64,000 bases of DNA from Labilibacter sediminis (GTDB lineage: Bacteria; Bacteroidota; Bacteroidia; Bacteroidales; Marinilabiliaceae). This document shows positions 2,176 through 13,424 of this stretch, in pieces (within the stretch, counting starts at the first letter, position 1; each line of letters starts with the position of its first letter). The notes under the pieces were generated by a model, which had not been told where the DNA came from, searched no databases, and saw nothing but the letters and a program-made list of their open reading frames with translations. A program made the translations under genes and the position numbers. The DNA is taken from assembly GCF_005877885.1 (NCBI RefSeq), contig NZ_VCHY01000003.1:1-64000 (forward strand), read 5' to 3'.

Positions 2176-3231
2176 ATGAAGAACATCTTTTTAATATTAG
2201 TAGCCCTTGTACATTTCTCCTGTATTTCATGTTCTAAAGATCAGGAAGAAGAACAAGTTATAAATGAGCTAAGGTTTGATCAAAGTGAGCTGATTATTAG
2301 CGTTGGAGAGAAAGCCAATATAAATGTAATAGAAGCACCTGTTACAAGTGAACCTGTGGTATGGTCTTCTGATAACGAAACGATAGCTACTGTATTTATG
2401 GGTACGGTTACAACACTTACCAGTGGTACGGCAACCATTACTGCAACCATGGGAGAATATACTGCCAGTTGCATCATTACTGTTCCTGAACGAACCTACG
2501 AATTGGTATGGTCAGATGAATTTGATGGCACAGCGTTAAACCCAGATAACTGGACCATTGAAGTGAATGGTAATGGAGGTGGTAACGGAGAATTACAATA
2601 TTACACAGACCGCCCGGGAAACGTGCGTGTGGAAGATGGATTCTTAATTCTGGAAGCCCGAAAAGAAGACTATTCAGGAAAAAGTTATACCTCGGGTCGT
2701 ATTATAACCAAAAATAAACAAGACTTTAAGTATGGTAAAATGGAGGCCCGCTTAAAAGTGCCATTAGGCAGAGGAACATGGCCGGCTTTTTGGATGTTGG
2801 GATATGGCTCTTGGCCAAGAGCTGGAGAGATTGACATTATGGAACATGTAGGATATGATCCTAAAAATTTTCACTGTGCATTACATACCCTAAATAAAAA
2901 CGGCATGAATGGTCAAAATGCCCATGCCAATCAAACTTTTGATACTAATGTAGCTGATGATTTTCATGTCATCACCATGGAATGGGTTGAAAACGAATTT
3001 ATGGGCTATGATCGGATTCATATGTATATAGATGGTATAAAAACAACCACCTTCTCAGAAACCAAACAACTTCAAGATAGTGGCGATTGGCCTTTTAATG
3101 ATCGATTCTTTTTTATTCTAAACCTTGCCATAGGAGGTTCGTGGGGAGGTGTTCAGGGTGTTGACGACAGCATGTTTGACAATCCGGTATTATACAAAGT
3201 AGATTACGTTAAAGTGTATCAGTTAAAGTAG
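2176..3231 (+). CDS. GH16 endo-beta-1,3-glucanase (laminarinase) lipoprotein with Big_2 domain
   Basis: GH16 enzymes cut beta-1,3 or beta-1,3/1,4-glucans with retention. The 351-residue protein has a lipoprotein-type signal (HFSCISCS, Cys16 or Cys19). A Big_2 domain follows at about residues 32-104, then the GH16 domain from about 108 to the end (LVWSDEFDGTALNPDNW at its start). The catalytic ExDxxE signature is GEIDIMEHVG with Glu218 as nucleophile and Glu223 as acid/base. The extra residue in that motif (E-I-D-I-M-E) is the laminarinase form rather than the lichenase form. WPAFWMLG and GELQYYTDRPGN are also typical of laminarinases. The next gene starts 6 to 33 bases downstream, so they are co-transcribed. 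Surface attachment through lipid is inferred from the lipobox and the PUL setting. Confidence 0.92.
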   Translation: MKNIFLILVALVHFSCISCSKDQEEEQVINELRFDQSELIISVGEKANINVIEAPVTSEPVVWSSDNETIATVFMGTVTTLTSGTATITATMGEYTASCIITVPERTYELVWSDEFDGTALNPDNWTIEVNGNGGGNGELQYYTDRPGNVRVEDGFLILEARKEDYSGKSYTSGRIITKNKQDFKYGKMEARLKVPLGRGTWPAFWMLGYGSWPRAGEIDIMEHVGYDPKNFHCALHTLNKNGMNGQNAHANQTFDTNVADDFHVITMEWVENEFMGYDRIHMYIDGIKTTTFSETKQLQDSGDWPFNDRFFFILNLAIGGSWGGVQGVDDSMFDNPVLYKVDYVKVYQLK

Positions 3232-3264
3232 GTTATCATGAAACAAGCATTTAAATTTAAAAAG

Positions 3265-4554
3265 ATGAAACAAGCATCATTAATTATAGGATTATTGATA
3301 ACTGTTCTCGCTTCTTGTACAAAGGAAGAAGATGGTGAGAAACCTTACGTTCCTAAAACTCCTGTTGAACAGTCGAGAAGTGAAAAGCGTGGTGTTGCGT
3401 TTAATTATCAATTTGTTGAAGATGTTACAACGTTGGCTTCTGGAATTTCCTGGTCTTACAACTGGGGACATAGTCAGGGTGTTATTTTTGATGATGTAAC
3501 AACTGAACATCAAATTGACTTCTGCCCTATGGCCTGGAATGGTGTGAATGAAGATATGCTCAGAGAATATGTTTCTCGCCATCCTGAATGTGAATACCTA
3601 TTGGCATTCAATGAGCCTAATTTAACAGATCAGGCCAATATGACGCCTCAACAAGCTGCTGAAAAATGGCCCCAAGTTAAAGAAATAGCTGATGAACTTA
3701 ATTTGAAAATCATATCGCCGGCCATGAATTATGGTACCTTACCTAACTATTCTGATCCAATTGTTTGGCTGGATGAATTCTTCACTTTAATACCTATAGA
3801 TGATATAGAAGGTATTTCAGTACACTGTTATATGCCTAATGCAACTGCTTTAAAAGGATTCATTGAGCGATTCGAAAAATATAATAAACCCATTTGGTTA
3901 ACCGAATTTTGTGCCTGGGAAGGGCATGTGACTCCCGAAAGCCAACAACAATATATGTCGGATGCGCTTAACTATTTAGAGAGCAGCTCAAATGTATATC
4001 GCTATGCGTGGTTTATACCACGATCAGGCAGTGGACCTGATGCTTTCCCATATATGCCTCTGCTTAAAAATACTTATCCGGTTGAGCTAACTGACCTTGG
4101 TATGATCTATACTCAAATGTCTTCGCAGGACAAGAGCATTTATTATGTGGAGCAACAACAAATAGAAGCTGAACACTATAGCTCCATAAGTATTGCAGAG
4201 AGTGCCAATGAAACTGGCTGGACCAATGGACCAAAAGTAAGAGTAACGACCGATGCGCCTAATGAAAATCTGGAACTGTACAACTTTTATGCAAACCAGT
4301 GGGTAGAGTATCAGATAGAAGCTGATAGGAGTAGAAACTATAATTTAGAAATACGCTACGCTACCTTTATTGATGCCGAAATAGAAATCAGCATTGATGG
4401 TGAATTGGTTAAAACAATTAGCCTCGGCAATACAACTCAGAATTACATTTGGAATACAGCTATTTTCTCTTTGCCATTATCCAACGGCAAGCAAACATTA
4501 CGATTAAAACTGACTGATGGTGCATGTTGTATAAATTGGTTAAAGTTTCTTTAA
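3265..4554 (+). CDS. GH128-like endo-beta-1,3-glucanase lipoprotein with C-terminal CBM6
   Basis: GH128 enzymes are small TIM-barrel endo-beta-1,3-glucanases. From the start at 3265 the protein has 429 residues, with signal MKQASLIIGLLI and lipobox TVLASC (Cys18). An in-frame ATG at 3238 would add nine charged residues before the signal; both starts lie in a 13-bp direct repeat, ATGAAACAAGCAT. I prefer 3265 because the signal then begins normally. The catalytic domain has KRGVAF, SWSYNW, FCPMAWNG, then LLAFNEPNL (Glu117, proposed acid/base) and IWLTEFCAW (Glu214, proposed nucleophile), the Glyco_hydro_cc pattern. From about residue 294 a CBM6-like domain follows (IEAEHYSSIS, NQWVEYQIEADR, CINWLKF). 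It is a tandem paralogue of the next gene. Confidence 0.88.
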   Translation: MKQASLIIGLLITVLASCTKEEDGEKPYVPKTPVEQSRSEKRGVAFNYQFVEDVTTLASGISWSYNWGHSQGVIFDDVTTEHQIDFCPMAWNGVNEDMLREYVSRHPECEYLLAFNEPNLTDQANMTPQQAAEKWPQVKEIADELNLKIISPAMNYGTLPNYSDPIVWLDEFFTLIPIDDIEGISVHCYMPNATALKGFIERFEKYNKPIWLTEFCAWEGHVTPESQQQYMSDALNYLESSSNVYRYAWFIPRSGSGPDAFPYMPLLKNTYPVELTDLGMIYTQMSSQDKSIYYVEQQQIEAEHYSSISIAESANETGWTNGPKVRVTTDAPNENLELYNFYANQWVEYQIEADRSRNYNLEIRYATFIDAEIEISIDGELVKTISLGNTTQNYIWNTAIFSLPLSNGKQTLRLKLTDGACCINWLKFL

Positions 4555-4621
4555 GCTAACATATTAGCTATTGAAATCTAACACACAAGTATGAAATATT
4601 ACTTAATGACAAATCCATAAA

Positions 4622-4650
4622 ACCTAACAGGTTTCCATAACCTGTTAGGT
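4622..4650 (+). repeat. Perfect 10-bp-stem hairpin between the two GH128 genes
   Basis: ACCTAACAGG at 4622-4631 and CCTGTTAGGT at 4641-4650 form a perfect stem with a 9-base loop. No T-run follows directly. It may be a dispersed palindromic repeat or an RNA-stabilizing or processing element within the operon. It lies in the 203-bp spacer before the second GH128 gene. Confidence 0.6.
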
Positions 4651-4757
4651 CTATAATAACAAAAATAAATCGCCACTTATCACTCTATTACTTGACATTA
4701 GTTATCAAATAATCATTTGTAAAAAAGTGTCATCTCTGATAGTTTAAATTTTATTTA

Positions 4758-6062
4758 ATGAAATACTTATACATTGTTTGGATATATATTGCTTTAGTTT
4801 GTTGTTCTGCCACTTGCAGTACTGATGTTGGTAATAACGACTACACCCCCAAAACACCAGTTAAACAAAACCGAAGTGCAAAAAGAGGTGTTTCCTTTGG
4901 CTTCCAGTTTATCGATGATATTCGTGTATTAAGTGAAGGAATGTCGTGGTCGTACAACTGGGCTCCTGCCCAAATAGCATCTTATGATGAAGTGGTGAAT
5001 AAACATGGGATTGACTACTGCCCGATGGCTTGGAACGGTGTTGATGAAAATGCACTTCGCGAATATGTCTCCAGGCATCCTGAATGTAAATACCTATTGG
5101 CTTTTAATGAACCAAACTTAACCGATCAGGCCAATATGACACCTCAGCAGGCGGCTCAAAAATGGGTAGACATTAAATCCATTGCTGACGAACTAGGTCT
5201 TAAAATCATATCTCCGGCCATGAATTATGGTACTCTTGAAAATTACCATGATCCAATTAATTGGCTGGATGAGTTTTTTGAATTGGTTCCCATAAACGAC
5301 ATCGACGGCATTTCTATTCATTGTTATATGGCCAGCCCATCTGCAGTAAAATGGTATATCGATCGATTCAAGAAATATGATAAACCCATTTGGTTAACTG
5401 AGTTTTGTGCCTGGGATGGACTAAACGAGGATAATTTTAGCATTGAAGGGCAGCAAAAGTATATGTCGGATGTATTTAATTACCTGGAAAGCGATCCTAT
5501 GGTTTACCGCTATGCCTGGTTCATTCCACGAGGTGAAGGCAGTGAAAACAATTTTCCATACATGTTTCTGCTAAAAAATTCCGCAGATGCCGAATTAACA
5601 AAACTGGGTAAAATTTTTAATCAGATATCTACTCAGGATAAAAATACATTTTACGTAGAGCAACAAACCATCGAAGCTGAACACTATAGTTCTATCAGTA
5701 TAGCAGATGGAGTTGATACCGAAGATTGGGTAAGTGGTCCGATGGTAAGAGCTACGTCTGAACAGAATGATGAATCGCTTGAACTATACAACTTTCTTCC
5801 GGATCAGTGGGTAGAGTATCAAATTGAGTTAGATAGAACCAAGGAGTTTTCTCTGGATATAAGACACGCTAATCAATCAGATGCTGTCATCAGCATATAC
5901 GTTGATGGCAAAGCAAACACCAGTTATGTATTACAAAATACAGCTGAGGACTATATCTGGGAAACATCTTCCATACCCCTATCCATAAAAGAAGGAAAAC
6001 ATACACTTAAAATCACTATTAACAAAGGTAATATTTGTATGAATTGGCTAAGGATTTCGTAG
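4758..6062 (+). CDS. Second GH128-like endo-beta-1,3-glucanase with CBM6 (tandem paralogue)
   Basis: This 434-residue protein matches the preceding gene along its whole length: KRGVSFGFQF, SWSYNW, YCPMAWNGV, LLAFNEPNLTDQANMTPQQA, SPAMNYGTL, IWLTEFCAWDG and a C-terminal CBM6-like domain (IEAEHYSSISIA, DQWVEYQIELDR, CMNWLRIS). Both catalytic glutamates (NEP and LTEF) are kept, so both copies are likely active. The signal peptide ends near CCSATCSTD (Cys20), a poorer lipobox than in the paralogue. The gene is separated from the first copy by 203 bp with a hairpin. The duplication points to functional split, for example different chain length or branching preference (inference). Linear or side-chain-bearing beta-1,3-glucan is the expected substrate. 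Confidence 0.87.
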   Translation: MKYLYIVWIYIALVCCSATCSTDVGNNDYTPKTPVKQNRSAKRGVSFGFQFIDDIRVLSEGMSWSYNWAPAQIASYDEVVNKHGIDYCPMAWNGVDENALREYVSRHPECKYLLAFNEPNLTDQANMTPQQAAQKWVDIKSIADELGLKIISPAMNYGTLENYHDPINWLDEFFELVPINDIDGISIHCYMASPSAVKWYIDRFKKYDKPIWLTEFCAWDGLNEDNFSIEGQQKYMSDVFNYLESDPMVYRYAWFIPRGEGSENNFPYMFLLKNSADAELTKLGKIFNQISTQDKNTFYVEQQTIEAEHYSSISIADGVDTEDWVSGPMVRATSEQNDESLELYNFLPDQWVEYQIELDRTKEFSLDIRHANQSDAVISIYVDGKANTSYVLQNTAEDYIWETSSIPLSIKEGKHTLKITINKGNICMNWLRIS

Positions 6063-6182: not shown

Positions 6183-7580
6183 ATGAAAAAAATTACTCTT
6201 TTCATGGCGGTGCTATGCATAGCCATAACCAATGCTTTTAGCCAAAATTTGGCTCTTAATAAAACAGCAACAGCTTCAACAGGTGATGCAGCCTTGGCTG
6301 TAGATGAAAATACCGGATCAAGATGGGAGTCAGCTCATGAAGATCCTCAATGGATTGCCATTGATTTGGAACAATCATACAACATAGGGCAGGTCGTTTT
6401 AAACTGGGAAGGAGCCTATGGCAAAGTATATGAAATACAGGTCTCAGAAAACGGAACCGATTGGACAACCATTCATTCTGAAACAAATTCAGATGGTGGA
6501 ATCGACGATATCCTGGTTACAGGTACCGGCCGTTATGTGAGAATGTATGGAACAGAAAGAGGAACACCTTGGGGGTATAGCCTATGGGAAATGGAAATAT
6601 ATGAAGCCGCAGCTGAAGGTAAAGATGCTTCGTTAACCAGTTTATCTGTTGATGGTATTAACCTAGAGGGCTTTAGCAACACAATGGATACTTATATCTA
6701 TGCTGTAGCAGATGGAACAATCGTTATTCCTACTGTAGTAGCTACTACAACTGACATCAATGCAAGCACTCAGATTACTGATGCAGCCTCAATACCTGGA
6801 ACAACAACAGTTTTAGTTACATCACAAGATGAAACAGTGACTAAAACATTTTACATTGAATTTATCATCGGTATACCCGGAGCTGCTGCCCCAACGCCTA
6901 CTCATGATGAAACCAATGTAATTTCTGTCTATAGCGATTTTTACACAAGCATTGCTACAAACCTTAATCCCGGGTGGGGACAATCAACTGTTTTTGAGGA
7001 AGTGCAGTTTGACGGGAACAATACTCTTAAGTATGGAAACTTAGATTATCAGGGGATGGAATATACCAACCCAACAGATGTTTCAGATATGGAGTATATT
7101 CATCTGGATTATTTTACCGGCGATGCTACCTCTTTCGAATTTTACCTGATAGCGGATGGTGAAAATGCCTATAACATTAACTCAGAGCTGGGTATTACAA
7201 CCGGAGAGTGGGTCGGTATTGATATCCCATTAAGTCATTATGCCGATGCAGGTCGTGATCTTACAGCTGCCTTCCAGTTTAAAACAACAGGTAACGGTAC
7301 CATTTATATGGATAATCTGTATTTCTGGAAATCTGTTCCTACAGCTATTAACAATATGGATGAATTAAACTTTTCTATTAGTCCAAACCCTGCAAGCAAC
7401 TATCTTAATATAAATGCATCTGAACACATTGAAATGGTTGAGATATTTGATTTAACAGGGAAAAGCGTTCTAAAAGAAACATCAAAAAAACTGGACGTAA
7501 GCTCTTTAACTCAAGGAGTATATTTAGTAAAGGTTCAAATTGAGGGTATTATTAAAACCACCAAGTTTATTAAGAAATAA
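6183..7580 (+). CDS. T9SS-secreted CBM32 / beta-sandwich glycan-binding protein
   Basis: This 465-residue exported protein has no visible catalytic motif. A signal peptide (MKKITLFMAVLCIAITNAFS) is followed by an F5/8 type C (CBM32) domain at about residues 22-140 (NLALNKTATAS, DPQWIAIDLEQSYNIGQV, GRYVRMYGTERGTPWGYSLW). Next is a cadherin-like beta-sandwich at about 147-232 (ASLTSLSVDGINLEGFS). A third domain at about 240-385 begins APTPTHDETNVISVYSDFYT and ends GTIYMDNLYFW, a module I associate with secreted beta-glucan proteins of this phylum. The end is a T9SS type A sorting domain (FSISPNPASNYLNI, GVYLVKVQIEGIIKTTKFIKK). It is probably secreted or attached to the surface by T9SS and binds glucan for the enzymes around it (inference). 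Confidence 0.82.
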   Translation: MKKITLFMAVLCIAITNAFSQNLALNKTATASTGDAALAVDENTGSRWESAHEDPQWIAIDLEQSYNIGQVVLNWEGAYGKVYEIQVSENGTDWTTIHSETNSDGGIDDILVTGTGRYVRMYGTERGTPWGYSLWEMEIYEAAAEGKDASLTSLSVDGINLEGFSNTMDTYIYAVADGTIVIPTVVATTTDINASTQITDAASIPGTTTVLVTSQDETVTKTFYIEFIIGIPGAAAPTPTHDETNVISVYSDFYTSIATNLNPGWGQSTVFEEVQFDGNNTLKYGNLDYQGMEYTNPTDVSDMEYIHLDYFTGDATSFEFYLIADGENAYNINSELGITTGEWVGIDIPLSHYADAGRDLTAAFQFKTTGNGTIYMDNLYFWKSVPTAINNMDELNFSISPNPASNYLNINASEHIEMVEIFDLTGKSVLKETSKKLDVSSLTQGVYLVKVQIEGIIKTTKFIKK

Positions 7581-8658: not shown

Positions 8659-10923
8659 ATGAAAAAAACTTTTCTACTTTTAGTGATGATGTATTGCTTA
8701 GTAAATATTAAGCTACATTCTCAAACATTAATTTGGGCCGATGAATTTAATGGTACCGAATTAGATCAGAACAATTGGAACTATGAAACAGGAACCGGAT
8801 TAAATGGGGACTGGGGTACATGCCAGGTAGATGCTGCTACAGATCGACCTGAAAATGTTAGTATATTACAAGGGATAAGTGACGCCGATGGTGGTGTTGT
8901 GGCTATAACAACCACAAAGGAAAATTACGTAGTTCCCGGAGGAGGAGGAACCAGACAATATACTAGTGGTAGAATTAATACACAAGGTAAAGTGTCATGG
9001 GGACCGGGACATCAGATTAAAGCCAGAATCTGGGCAAAGGATGTACGGTATGTCGGTCAGGGATTTGCTTTTTGGGCAATGCCCAATGAACTGCCTCAAG
9101 GAGAAACTCATCTTATGTGGCCTCAAGGTGGTGAAATCGATATTTTTGAATACAATGGATTGAATCCATACAACAACCTTGGAAGTGTTCATTATGCTAA
9201 CTGGTGGAATAATAATCAATGGATGGATGGTAACCATGTACACCACGGCGGAATTTACAGCTATGAGTCACAACAAGTTCCCGGAGAACAACCACAGTGG
9301 ATATATGTTGATTTAGGACAGTCTTATAATATAACGAGGGTAGTGTTGAATTGGGAATTTGCTTATGCCAGTCACTACCAGATTCAGGTATCAGATGATG
9401 CAATAAATTGGATCGATGTGTTTTCAACCTCTTCCGGAACTGGTGGTGTAGATGATATATCATTGTCAGGTAATGGTCGTTATGTACGTATGTTGGGTAC
9501 CGAAAGAGGAACCCAATATGGGTATTCTTTATGGGAGTTTGAAGTATATGAATCAGGGGCAAATCTGGCTTTAAATAAACCGGTTGTATCATCCTCCAAT
9601 GAGAATAGTAGTTTAGGAACAGAGTTTGCGGTTGACGGGAGCTCTTCTACAAGATGGGCCAGTGGTAATCTGGAAATGAATAGTGGACCGCTACCTCCAG
9701 CTCTTGATAATCCTAATACTGCCAGCTATACATGGCATGAATATGGTATAAATTGGTACGATGACCGTCTTGAATTTTTTGCAGATGATAATGTATACCA
9801 TATTCATTATTTCAATGATGGTGGACGTTTTACTGTTGATGGTCAGGATGAAGAAGCTATAAGTCTTATTGATGGAAAAAGAACGCTTGAATCGGAATAT
9901 TCAAACAGATTTTCAGAATGGCATCCATTTGAGCATAACTTTTATCTGATTTTAAGTGCCGGAGTTGGAGGAAGTTGTACCTATGGTGGTGCCATTGTTG
10001 ATGACGCTATTTTCCCTTGTTCTGTTTACGTTGATTGGATAAGAGTATACGATCTTAACGGAGGATCAAATTCACTTCCAACAGCTACTTATACCTATAC
10101 GGCTAACGATTTGATCGTAGACTTTGATGGATCAGGAAGTTCAGATAGTGATGGTTCAATAACCAGCTGGACTTGGGATTTTGGTAATGGAAATACGGCA
10201 AATGGACAAACAGTTAACCATACTTATGCAGCTGCAGGTAATTACACTGTTACCTTATCTGTTACTGATGATGCTGGTGGTACAGATTCAGAATCTAAGG
10301 TTGTTTCAGTAAGCTCAGGAGGATCTGGAGATCCGGTGAGTGTGCATGTACAATCAATAATAACTGGTACTCAGGATGCAGGAAGAGGTTCTAAACAAGG
10401 CACCGCTACTGTAACTATTCATAATGACCTTGAAGGCGTTGTTAGTGATGCAATGGTTACTGGTACATTCTCTGGTTCAATTAATGAAACAGTTTCAGGG
10501 GTAACAGATGTAAATGGAACCGTTATCTTAACGACAACAAGCACAGCAAAAGGTAAGGTTTCTGTTGACTTTTGCGTTGATAATGTAACACATAGTTCAC
10601 TTTCATACAATAATGTCTTGAATGATATTACTTGTTCCGGAGAATTAAAAAATGCATTACTGTCTGAAGAGGAAGTAACTGAACCATTTTCATTTAATAT
10701 TTATCCTAATCCTGTTATTGACTTATTAAATATTGAGATAATTGGGGATGATCAGGAAGCTAAAATCTGTATTTACGATATATCAGGAAAACAAGTATAT
10801 ACAACCATAGGCACATCAAACAATTACGTAGTGGTGAATATGTCCGACTTTGATGCAGGAATCTATTTAATTAGAGTATCAGGAAAAAATGGTGTTAAAA
10901 CAGAAAGAATAATCAAAAGATAA
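8659..10923 (+). CDS. T9SS-secreted GH16 beta-glucanase with an inserted, apparently circularly permuted CBM32, plus PKD
   Basis: This 754-residue protein has a signal peptide (1-21) and a GH16 domain starting at about 23 (LIWADEFNGTELDQNNW). The catalytic motif GEIDIFEYNG has Glu159 and Glu164. After HVHHGGIYSYE the GH16 fold breaks and a discoidin-like segment runs from about 203 to 343. It resumes at about 350 with TASYTWHEYGINWYDDRLEF and ends SVYVDWIRVYD at 465. Inside the insert the order is reversed against the CBM32 of the gene at 6183: the second part (PQWIYVDLGQSYNITRV to YSLWEFEVYES) comes first, and the first part (NLALNKPVVSSS to TRWASG) comes last. A PKD domain (about 476-552), an Ig-like domain (about 560-655) and a T9SS sorting domain (about 676-754, FNIYPNPVIDLLNI) follow. 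A terminator lies 26 bp after the stop. Confidence 0.9.
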   Translation: MKKTFLLLVMMYCLVNIKLHSQTLIWADEFNGTELDQNNWNYETGTGLNGDWGTCQVDAATDRPENVSILQGISDADGGVVAITTTKENYVVPGGGGTRQYTSGRINTQGKVSWGPGHQIKARIWAKDVRYVGQGFAFWAMPNELPQGETHLMWPQGGEIDIFEYNGLNPYNNLGSVHYANWWNNNQWMDGNHVHHGGIYSYESQQVPGEQPQWIYVDLGQSYNITRVVLNWEFAYASHYQIQVSDDAINWIDVFSTSSGTGGVDDISLSGNGRYVRMLGTERGTQYGYSLWEFEVYESGANLALNKPVVSSSNENSSLGTEFAVDGSSSTRWASGNLEMNSGPLPPALDNPNTASYTWHEYGINWYDDRLEFFADDNVYHIHYFNDGGRFTVDGQDEEAISLIDGKRTLESEYSNRFSEWHPFEHNFYLILSAGVGGSCTYGGAIVDDAIFPCSVYVDWIRVYDLNGGSNSLPTATYTYTANDLIVDFDGSGSSDSDGSITSWTWDFGNGNTANGQTVNHTYAAAGNYTVTLSVTDDAGGTDSESKVVSVSSGGSGDPVSVHVQSIITGTQDAGRGSKQGTATVTIHNDLEGVVSDAMVTGTFSGSINETVSGVTDVNGTVILTTTSTAKGKVSVDFCVDNVTHSSLSYNNVLNDITCSGELKNALLSEEEVTEPFSFNIYPNPVIDLLNIEIIGDDQEAKICIYDISGKQVYTTIGTSNNYVVVNMSDFDAGIYLIRVSGKNGVKTERIIKR

Positions 10924-11021: not shown

Positions 11022-13424
11022 ATGAAGAAAATAGTTTCATTGTTGTTAATCCTTATGACAGGATTAGCTTTATCTGCACAAAATACAAGTGTTGATAAGG
11101 ATATTACTAAGAGAGTGGAAAAACTTGTATCACAACTTACTTTAGAGGAAAAGGTGTCACTTTGCTCAGGTCGCGACGATTGGAGTACGCAACCTATTGA
11201 AAGATTAAACATTCCCTGGATTTGGATGGCTGATGGACCACATGGGTTACGTCGTGCACCTGCAACTAACAAAGCGGGTTATGGTGACCAAATACCTGCA
11301 ACTTGTTTCCCAACAGCTTCAGCACTTTCTGCAACCTGGGATGTAGATTTGGTTTATAAGGTAGGACAAGCGTTAGGTACAGAATGCCAGGCTCTGGATG
11401 TTAATGTGTTATTGGGACCTGGTGTAAACATCAAACGTTCTGTGTTGGGCGGAAGAAATTTCGAATATTTTTCTGAAGACCCGATTCTCTCAGGTGAGTT
11501 GGGAGCAGCATATATCAACGGAGTTCAAAATCAAGGGGTCGGGACTTCTTTAAAGCATTTTGCCGCTAACAATGTTGAAACAATGCGCATGTTTATGAAC
11601 TCTGATGTGGATGAAAGAACTTTTCATGAGATATACCTGACTCCCTTCGAAATTGCGGTTAAAAAAGCTCAGCCATGGACTGTAATGGCCTGTTATAATC
11701 GTGTTCAGGGAGAATATGGAACACAAAGCCCATATCTTTTAACTAAAATATTGAAAGAAGACTGGGGATTTGAAGGTATTGTTGTTTCTGATTGGTTCGC
11801 GATTGTTGATAGAGTAAAGGCCTTGAAAGCAGGAATGCATATTGAAATGCCCCATGTGAGTGATGTAAATGACAATATTTTACTTGAGGCTGTGAAAAAT
11901 GGTATTCTGGAAGAAACGGTCTTGGATAACATTGTTAGTGATATTCTACGCGTTGTGATAAAAGCTCAATCACTTAAAAAAGAAGGCGTGGATCAAAAAG
12001 TAGAGGAACACCATGCCTTTGCACGTAAAGTAGCTTCCCAAGCTGCTACCTTGTTAAAAAACAAGGATGAAGTACTGCCAGTTTCGAAAGAAAAATATAA
12101 AAAAGTGGCTATCATCGGAGAATTCGCCAAGTCTCCACGTTATCAAGGGAATGGCAGTTCAGAAGTTAGACCAACTCAATTGGATAACGTTTATGATATC
12201 ATTGAAAAGGAGTATGGCAAAGACATAAAGATCTCATACGCTCAAGGCTATACTTTAAAAGATGACAATGATGTTCGTTTAATTGATGAGGCTGTACAAG
12301 TTGCCCAGGAAGCTGATATCGCCTTGGTTTTTGCAGGCTTACCCTTATCGTACGAGTCAGAAGGTATCGATCGCAAACATATCGATATGCCAGCATCACA
12401 TAATCAATTAATTTTTGAAATAGCAAAAGTACAAAGTAATACTGTTGCGGTTTTAGCAAACGGCAGTGCAGTTGCGATGCCTTGGGTTAACGATGTTGAA
12501 GCCATTCTGGAAACGTGGTTAGGAGGTCAGGCTGGAGCCGGCGGTGTTGCTGATGTTTTATTTGGAACAGTGAATCCTTCCGGTAAATTAGCAGAATCCT
12601 TCCCGGTTAGATTGGAAGATACACCTACATCATTTAATTTCCCGGGCGAACAAGGAAATGTTTTGTACGGCGAAAGAATTTTTGTAGGATATCGCTACTA
12701 CGACGAAAAAAAGATTGAACCTCTGTTTCCTTTTGGACATGGATTATCATATACACAATTTGAGTATACCGACATGAAAGTATCTGCAAAGGAGATTTCC
12801 GATAAGAACTTTCTGGAAGTTGTTATTAGTGTGAAAAATTCAGGTTCAGTTAAAGGAAAAGAAACAGTACAACTTTATGTCACAGATAAGGAATGTACAT
12901 TACAAAGGCCAGTAAAAGAATTGAAGAAGTTTGCAAAAGTTGAGCTGGCGCCAGGTGAAGAAAAAGAAATAACATTCAAATTAAACAGCCGCGACTTTTC
13001 ATATTATGATGCGAAAAGAGATATGTGGATTGCTGAGAGTGGACAATTTTTAATTTCTGCAGCTGCTTCTTCTCGAGATATCAGAAAAACTGCAACAATC
13101 GTATTAAATTCAACCCAACAAATTCCAATGCTGGTTGATGAGTATACCTTTGTTAAGGAGCTATGGGAAAATGAAAAGACACGTGAGCTGCTAAAGGAAT
13201 ATTTTCCAAATTGGATCAAAGGATGGGTTCCTGAAGGAAAATCGATGGATAATGCCAATATTCCTGGATTTTTCCTTGAACACCCAATAATTAAATACCC
13301 ATATATTACGAATAACGAAATAACTCATGAGGAAGTTAAAGAGCTGATAAAAAAATGTGATGGTATTACTTTTATACCCGAAGTTGTTAAATTTAAAGAT
13401 GTTGAAAATGTAAGTTTTGAATAA
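11022..13424 (+). CDS. GH3 beta-glucosidase, periplasmic
   Basis: This 800-residue enzyme likely releases glucose from beta-1,3-gluco-oligosaccharides in the periplasm. The cleavable signal is MKKIVSLLLILMTGLALSAQ with no lipobox and no T9SS tail. GH3 N-terminal landmarks are MADGPHGLRR (about 69-78), GPGVNIKRSVLGGRNFEYFS, TSLKHFAANN (Lys178-His179) and the nucleophile in GIVVSDWFA (Asp257). The C-terminal domain has GNGSSEVRP and the acid/base region, then a FnIII-like domain (LEVVISVKNSGSVKGKETVQ) to about residue 700. About 95 further residues follow (from MLVDEYTFVKELW), a helical tail seen in some GH3 glucosidases. It closes the PUL; a hairpin terminator follows. Confidence 0.93.
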   Translation: MKKIVSLLLILMTGLALSAQNTSVDKDITKRVEKLVSQLTLEEKVSLCSGRDDWSTQPIERLNIPWIWMADGPHGLRRAPATNKAGYGDQIPATCFPTASALSATWDVDLVYKVGQALGTECQALDVNVLLGPGVNIKRSVLGGRNFEYFSEDPILSGELGAAYINGVQNQGVGTSLKHFAANNVETMRMFMNSDVDERTFHEIYLTPFEIAVKKAQPWTVMACYNRVQGEYGTQSPYLLTKILKEDWGFEGIVVSDWFAIVDRVKALKAGMHIEMPHVSDVNDNILLEAVKNGILEETVLDNIVSDILRVVIKAQSLKKEGVDQKVEEHHAFARKVASQAATLLKNKDEVLPVSKEKYKKVAIIGEFAKSPRYQGNGSSEVRPTQLDNVYDIIEKEYGKDIKISYAQGYTLKDDNDVRLIDEAVQVAQEADIALVFAGLPLSYESEGIDRKHIDMPASHNQLIFEIAKVQSNTVAVLANGSAVAMPWVNDVEAILETWLGGQAGAGGVADVLFGTVNPSGKLAESFPVRLEDTPTSFNFPGEQGNVLYGERIFVGYRYYDEKKIEPLFPFGHGLSYTQFEYTDMKVSAKEISDKNFLEVVISVKNSGSVKGKETVQLYVTDKECTLQRPVKELKKFAKVELAPGEEKEITFKLNSRDFSYYDAKRDMWIAESGQFLISAAASSRDIRKTATIVLNSTQQIPMLVDEYTFVKELWENEKTRELLKEYFPNWIKGWVPEGKSMDNANIPGFFLEHPIIKYPYITNNEITHEEVKELIKKCDGITFIPEVVKFKDVENVSFE

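Follow-up and report, generated by a model that had tools for sequence, protein, structure and literature searches.

A circularly permuted CBM32 domain nested in GH16 enzymes of Bacteroidota and Gammaproteobacteria

In the 64,000-nucleotide stretch of Labilibacter sediminis DNA analysed here (the window), the gene at 8659-10923 encodes a GH16 protein, P0001, whose sequence is interrupted by a CBM32 domain with its two parts in reversed order. That this permutation and its conservation are real is nearly certain. With a probability of roughly 0.8 we read P0001 as a secreted, endo-beta-1,3-glucanase-like GH16 enzyme carrying a complete, permuted CBM32 nested in one loop of its jelly roll, the module being kept by selection and probably binding glucan. 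The gene is built up as follows:

8659-10923, + strand: GH16 glucanase gene with nested, rotated CBM32, PKD domain and T9SS tail (open frame of 754 aa, P0001)
8722-9282, + strand: first GH16 segment, residues 22-208 (aligned to the insert-free relatives L009 and L010)
9283-9555, + strand: second, larger part of the CBM32, residues 209-299, which comes first (match to 4zy9_A 43-136; half-profile 125 bits)
9556-9561, + strand: joint GA, 2 residues, linking the old C-terminus with the old N-terminus (profile borders)
9562-9666, + strand: first, smaller part of the CBM32, residues 302-336, which comes second (match to 4zy9_A 7-42; half-profile 42.5 bits)
9667-10062, + strand: second GH16 segment, residues 337-468 (aligned with L009 and L010)
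10093-10299, + strand: PKD domain, residues 479-547 (PF18911)
10699-10914, + strand: T9SS C-terminal sorting domain, residues 681-752 (PF18962, TIGR04183)

Searches of P0001 against Pfam and NCBIfam yielded matches to PF18911, PF18962, PF00754, PF00722 and TIGR04183. Based on the TIGR04183 match and a signal peptide recognised by eye, P0001 is expected to undergo export and sorting through the T9SS. The hallmark of laminarinase-type GH16 enzymes is an ExDxxE catalytic motif located on one strand. In P0001 this motif is intact within the first GH16 segment as E159-I-D161-I-F-E164 (9133-9150), and its E, D and E columns are invariant across the 12 inserted proteins aligned. In phmmer searches against the PDB, laminarinases matched residues 22 to about 180, and other GH16 chains matched residues 391-467. 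The GH16 sequence runs up to YSYESQQVP (residue 208) and picks up again at about residue 337, and the insert spans residues of about 209-336, corresponding to 9283-9666 of the window. The original prediction, which had placed the insert at 9265-9687, was right about the location, and the borders proved slightly narrower. The Pfam borders were off, with PF00754 at 184-293 and PF00722 covering just 30 residues (353-382). Automatic annotation would misread P0001, the profiles being misled by the rotation of the insert and the splitting of the host, and enzymes of this kind represent an annotation trap, as they are easily misread from Pfam borders. An antisense frame of 131 aa (9197-9592, - strand) overlaps the insert, probably existing only as a side effect of the sequence coded opposite.

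Within the insert, the second part of the domain (GEQPQWIYVDL...EFEVYES) is followed by GA and then by the first part (NLALNK...STRWASG). Using phmmer, residues 43-136 of PDB 4zy9_A were placed on query residues 208-297 and residues 7-42 on query residues 301-336, the reverse of their order in the 4zy9_A chain. We modelled the first and second parts of CBM32 separately as half-profiles, trained on 53 normal-order domains that were not inserts, and determined the order from hits scoring above 40 bits with the second-part profile and above 8 bits with the first-part profile. The scores of the window insert, 125.0 bits for the second part and 42.5 bits for the first, are within the range of intact domains. 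Both profile parts are present in the insert, each once and in a chain order reversed from the usual one; the old ends are joined, and the new ends lie elsewhere, between the segment ending in RWAS and the strand beginning with PQWIYVDL. This is the pattern of a circular permutation. With the GA joint and the two half-profile scores, the proposed second-then-first order with a nearly gap-free join was confirmed.

The first part followed the second, and never preceded it, in all 17 inserts examined, the window included. In contrast, all 63 distinct CBM32 domains found elsewhere (second part above 40 bits) displayed the usual order, so that unpermuted homologues exist. Chance is therefore excluded by the comparison of 17/17 rotated inserts with 63/63 normal domains. 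Of the latter, 53 had also trained the half-profiles; the remaining 10, from plasmid records, lay outside the training set and behaved like the 53. The CBM32 encoded by the gene at 6183-7580, said by the original prediction to be in normal order, scored 43.7 bits for the first part and then 129.5 bits for the second, in agreement with that claim. By profile borders, the joint between the former ends measured 2-6 residues in the 17 inserts versus 5-16 residues in 15 tandem CBM32 pairs.

We then swapped the two parts of the insert in silico. The two phmmer matches to 4zy9_A (105.2 and 15.9 bits) became a single match of 141.4 bits along residues 8-136 of the chain, bearing out the expectation that the insert would align as one CBM32 once rotated. 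Likewise, the PF00754 score rose from 70.8 to 82.1 bits and the start on the profile moved from position 31 to position 4. Against PDB CBM32 modules of a glucanase/chitosanase, the rotated insert gave one match each (128-142 bits). Matches of the insert to both PF00754 and PF22633 were above the cut-off.

Within the family to which the window's genome belongs, a search of 71 genomes (E values up to 1e-30) recovered two homologues that lack the insert. Compared to these, the insert fills the loop between YSYE..VP and YGGYP (SGPLP in the window). The second GH16 segment of P0001 starts with SGPLPP, which aligns to YGGYPA/YGGYPP of insert-free relatives and is likely a remnant of the host loop. 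A contig collection of 84,980 species was scanned with two short GH16 patterns, an approach that covers relatives bearing both patterns. Of the 76 loci returned, 75 contained this GH16 (counted from rows scoring above 80 bits; L091, a weak match, was excluded). A short loop of about 14-35 residues was present in 64 of the 75 loci and a long insert in 11. All 11 inserts were rotated CBM32 domains, and none of these inserts in the 75 GH16 loci was in normal order.

A profile of the inserted proteins was additionally searched against whole genomes (E values up to 1e-60), using genome sets that overlap and of which the larger ones are samples. Among 393 genomes of the order to which the window belongs, and among 395 of the phylum, a single genome each time had an inserted gene, namely that of the window itself. 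The order of Cellvibrio mixtus contributed 2 genomes out of 293 and the Cellvibrio mixtus family 8 out of 144; in the Chitinophaga pinensis family 1 genome out of 244 had such a gene, and in the Hymenobacter family 3 out of 150. After removal of duplicates, 17 distinct inserted genes were obtained (window, L016-L026, L107, L110, L111, L116 and L117), distributed over two phyla. The 16 genes besides that of the window, from Cellvibrio, Microbulbifer, Chitinophaga, Hymenobacter and others, share the loop, the order and, within a few residues, the breakpoint; a search for the same architecture in other genomes, suggested with the original prediction, was thus successful. Many columns of the insert, W, E, R and D among them, show no variation across the 12 inserted proteins aligned.

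The genome of the window contains 17 places matching PF00754. One is the insert itself, and three (L126, L127 and L128) are of the same type in normal order and had also trained the half-profiles; at the remaining 13, half-profile scores were weak or missing. Twelve plasmid records matched the query, none covering more than 80% of it. No permuted CBM32 outside the GH16 loop was detected among the 10 domains, all normal, from five of these 12 records (L118-L122), and a DNA-level plasmid search gave zero matches. Four or more divergent discoidin domains are additionally encoded at the locus of one insert-free relative, L029 from an Owenweeksia MAG.

We calculated dN/dS by the Nei-Gojobori method for 15 close pairs, the insert being taken with a few surrounding loop residues. 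The ratios, which are rough since dS exceeded 1 in many pairs, were 0.013-0.233 for the insert (defined in 14 of 15 pairs), 0.007-0.155 for the GH16 core (defined in 15 pairs) and 0.019-0.265 for the first tail CBM32, which is in normal order (11 defined of the 12 pairs having one). The insert exceeded the GH16 core in dN in every one of the 15 pairs. Constraint on the insert is clear, and it is under purifying selection. Taken together, the profile order, the rotation test, the 16 further genes and the signature of purifying selection uphold the central claim of a circularly permuted CBM32 nested in GH16.

Structure prediction from the single sequence was useless (pLDDT 32). Using an alignment of 54 natural sequences, 12 of them inserted, a model of residues 21-470 was obtained with a mean pLDDT of 85.4 and a pTM of 0.77. 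The GH16 strands were confident. Strands were also predicted for the larger CBM32 part, with block means of 78-94 and dips to 66 and 49, while the block means of the smaller part were 83 and then 53, 54 and 53, the low blocks being model residues 291-320. Foldseek searches with the predicted model returned laminarinases and other endo-beta-1,3(4)-glucanases, and among the top 20 matches, 18 had TM scores (normalised by target) of 0.75-0.86; the other two were multidomain chains of 480 residues (0.40 and 0.42). No chain described as CBM32 or discoidin was among the 50 Foldseek matches listed. In the model, the two GH16 segments form one predicted jelly-roll fold around the insert. The prediction supports nesting of the insert in GH16, with the smaller CBM32 part as a low-confidence region. 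In the structural check proposed earlier, the model was confident for GH16 and most of the larger part and weak for the smaller part, which stayed mostly at pLDDT 53-54.

Several other explanations for the insert were considered. The permuted domain may fold and yet serve as a rigid spacer or loop cover that binds no sugar, a role with which its faster divergence relative to the GH16 core would be compatible. However, the many invariant insert columns and the low dN/dS, similar to the values for the tail CBM32s in normal order, suggest that more than shape is maintained, and we consider a mere spacer unlikely. A different proposal is that the two halves do not pair with each other, complementing a second molecule or a neighbouring CBM32 by domain swap. 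The shortness of the joint could be taken in this sense, as could the further C-terminal CBM32s occurring in 13 of the 17 inserted proteins. Against it, no additional CBM32 was found in the same chain of the other four (window, L023, L116 and L117). As the termini of discoidin domains lie close together in space, a short joint is moreover no obstacle to pairing within the insert, which leaves the domain swap very improbable.

Two half domains left behind by a deletion in a tandem CBM32 pair, a non-functional remnant, had been named as an alternative from the outset. The sequence order alone would fit such an event, and the set is rich in tandem CBM32s, with the 15 pairs mentioned above. It is contradicted by the conservation of both halves, with clear profile scores, in 17 genes of two phyla and by the dN/dS of the insert; we rejected decayed half-domains as having hardly any likelihood. 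An assembly error within 9200-9700, which was to have overturned the original prediction, is conceivable in a draft genome of 372 contigs, but 16 further genes, from assemblies other than this one, have the parts in this order at the corresponding position. Misassembly was rejected on these grounds, its probability being negligible.

The preferred reading, a maintained CBM32 nested within a glucanase, is in line with the surroundings of the gene, which comprise the following features:

41-949, + strand: SusD-like gene (PF07980, 139 bits)
2176-3231, + strand: ordinary GH16 protein (PF00722, 70.5 bits)
3238-4554 and 4758-6062, + strand: two tandem Glyco_hydro_cc genes with CBM6/CBM35-like tails (PF11790, 177 and 179.2 bits)
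6243-6605, + strand: normal-order CBM32 serving as control (L127), in the gene at 6183-7580
11022-13424, + strand: GH3 gene (PF01915, PF00933)

The SusD-like gene suggests a polysaccharide utilisation locus. The tandem Glyco_hydro_cc genes at 3238-6062, which we take to be GH128-like, apparently originated from a local duplication. The combination of SusD, GH16, two Glyco_hydro_cc, CBM32 and GH3 proteins would fit the use of beta-1,3-glucan, and judged by this context P0001 probably cuts beta-1,3-glucan. By its sequence, the chain leaves the GH16 loop, builds a whole CBM32 and returns, the short joint closing the old ends. Held by two linkers rather than one, the module probably binds glucan of the enzyme's own substrate and may keep the catalytic face on the glucan, thereby steadying the enzyme. 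The original prediction also suggested that its binding site could lie next to the cleft. That the nested module binds glucan is likely; the closest solved relatives of the insert are chitosanase/glucanase modules, a kinship that does not by itself prove glucan binding.

Comparison with known systems showed that GH16 laminarinases (PDB 2vy0, 3iln, 4crq, 5wut and 6jh5) share the host fold and the catalytic region with P0001. Their chains of about 230-265 residues leave no space for an inserted module of such size. CBM36 and CBM60 are reportedly related by a circular permutation, said to have been described by Montanier in J Biol Chem in 2010. That case would also be a natural circular permutation among carbohydrate-binding modules; there, however, two whole families are said to be set apart by it, whereas the rotation in P0001 occurs within one family and coincides with nesting. 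The closest solved relatives of both halves of the insert are the CBM32 modules of PDB 4zy9, 4zxe, 4zz5, 2rv9 and 2rva, which we take to be DD1/DD2 of Paenibacillus IK-5. Unlike the insert, these modules are in normal order and form a C-terminal appendage that is not nested in a catalytic domain. The IK-5 modules are described as CBM32 domains at the C-terminus of a chitosanase which bind chitosan, chitin and cellulose (PMC12154041).

Carbohydrate-binding modules nested in the catalytic domain of enzymes from polysaccharide utilisation loci, as in P0001, have been described for the GH10 xylanases Xyn10C and Pm25, in which a CBM4 is located between beta3 and alpha3, and for SusG (GH13) with its inserted CBM58 (PMC7848910). 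In these enzymes the host is GH10 or GH13 and the module CBM4 or CBM58, and the sections of that article on them mention no rotation, in contrast to the GH16 jelly roll and rotated CBM32 of P0001. The GH26 mannanases BcWH2/BuGH26 similarly contain an internal binding domain within the catalytic sequence (PMC13357471); host and module differ from those of P0001, and no permutation appears in the main text of that article. No description of a GH16-nested permuted CBM32 was found in those parts of the open-licence literature that were searched, although a description elsewhere is possible, and CBM32 is not mentioned in the main text of the Chitinophaga pinensis GH16/glucan articles consulted. Inserted modules and circular permutations are thus each known, and here they are joined in one maintained enzyme design occurring in two phyla. 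The arrangement represents a natural experiment on making a domain insertable, as rotation brings both ends to one loop.

Insertion into a pre-existing loop is indicated by those 64 loci, out of 75, whose loop is empty, together with the loop remnants, which read SGPLPP in the window and YG(N/G)YPP in Cellvibrio/Microbulbifer; in the genes of Chitinophaga and Hymenobacter no remnant is recognisable. In a tree of 91 GH16 cores (built without L100, a duplicate, and frames below 120 bits), the inserted genes formed three groups, requiring 3 state changes: the window, eight genes of Chitinophaga/Flavihumibacter/Hymenobacter, and eight of Cellvibrio/Microbulbifer and kin. AU tests on the GH16 core rejected a single clade of all 17 (p 0.03) and a grouping of the window with the Chitinophaga/Hymenobacter group alone (p 0.017), and did not reject a clade of the 16 genes without the window (p 0.10). 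Such non-monophyly is unexpected under a simple single insertion.

The CBM32 tree, from which 4 domains of L029 were left out, united 16 inserts in one clade (94/91, just below the starred level) and placed the window insert apart from them, beside a normal-order CBM32 (91/87, not starred). A CBM32 clade of all 17 permuted domains was not rejected (p 0.245). In a second, smaller build, also without the long rows L013_414, L004_477, L005_502 and L088-L090, the permuted domains needed two changes (one in 27% of bootstraps). An RNP located two to three residues after RW.S is common to the 16 inserts and absent from the window. Separate trees of the two GH16 segments, built without 10 duplicate loci, revealed no difference that would point to recombination at the insert, with 3 changes each in poorly resolved trees.

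We concluded that a single origin of the 16 inserts is likely, including transfer between Bacteroidota and Gammaproteobacteria. A Glyco_hydro_cc/CBM6/F5-8C gene lies near the inserted gene in L016 (Cellvibrio) and L018 (Microbulbifer), and Glyco_hydro_cc genes are also found in the window, in keeping with a locus having been transferred. For the inserted gene of Hymenobacter, a single neighbour was scanned; it encodes a DUF5916 protein and offers no glucan context. Most likely, and by the simplest route, a unit lying out of phase within a tandem array of CBM32s entered the GH16 loop; an intermediate of this kind was not detected among the relatives found.

It is possible, though doubtful, that the same rotation arose at the same loop more than once, in the window and separately in the Cellvibrio/Chitinophaga/Hymenobacter genes, perhaps also independently between the latter two groups. 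The 3 changes, the AU rejection at p 0.03, the placement of the window CBM32 and the missing RNP at its junction speak for this idea. On the other side stands the clade of 17 CBM32 domains at p 0.245, and losses or recombination could produce the same picture. If repeated origin were true, the GH16 loop would take up a CBM32 only with its ends moved to the RWAS/PQWI loop, which would amount to a structural rule of nesting. The Microbulbifer genes adjacent to that of the nested enzyme (L018:1876-5820, L019:1801-6012) code for proteins exceeding 1300 aa in length; the L018 protein combines GH16, PKD, Glyco_hydro_cc, CBM6 and discoidin domains, and that of L019 was judged by its sequence only.
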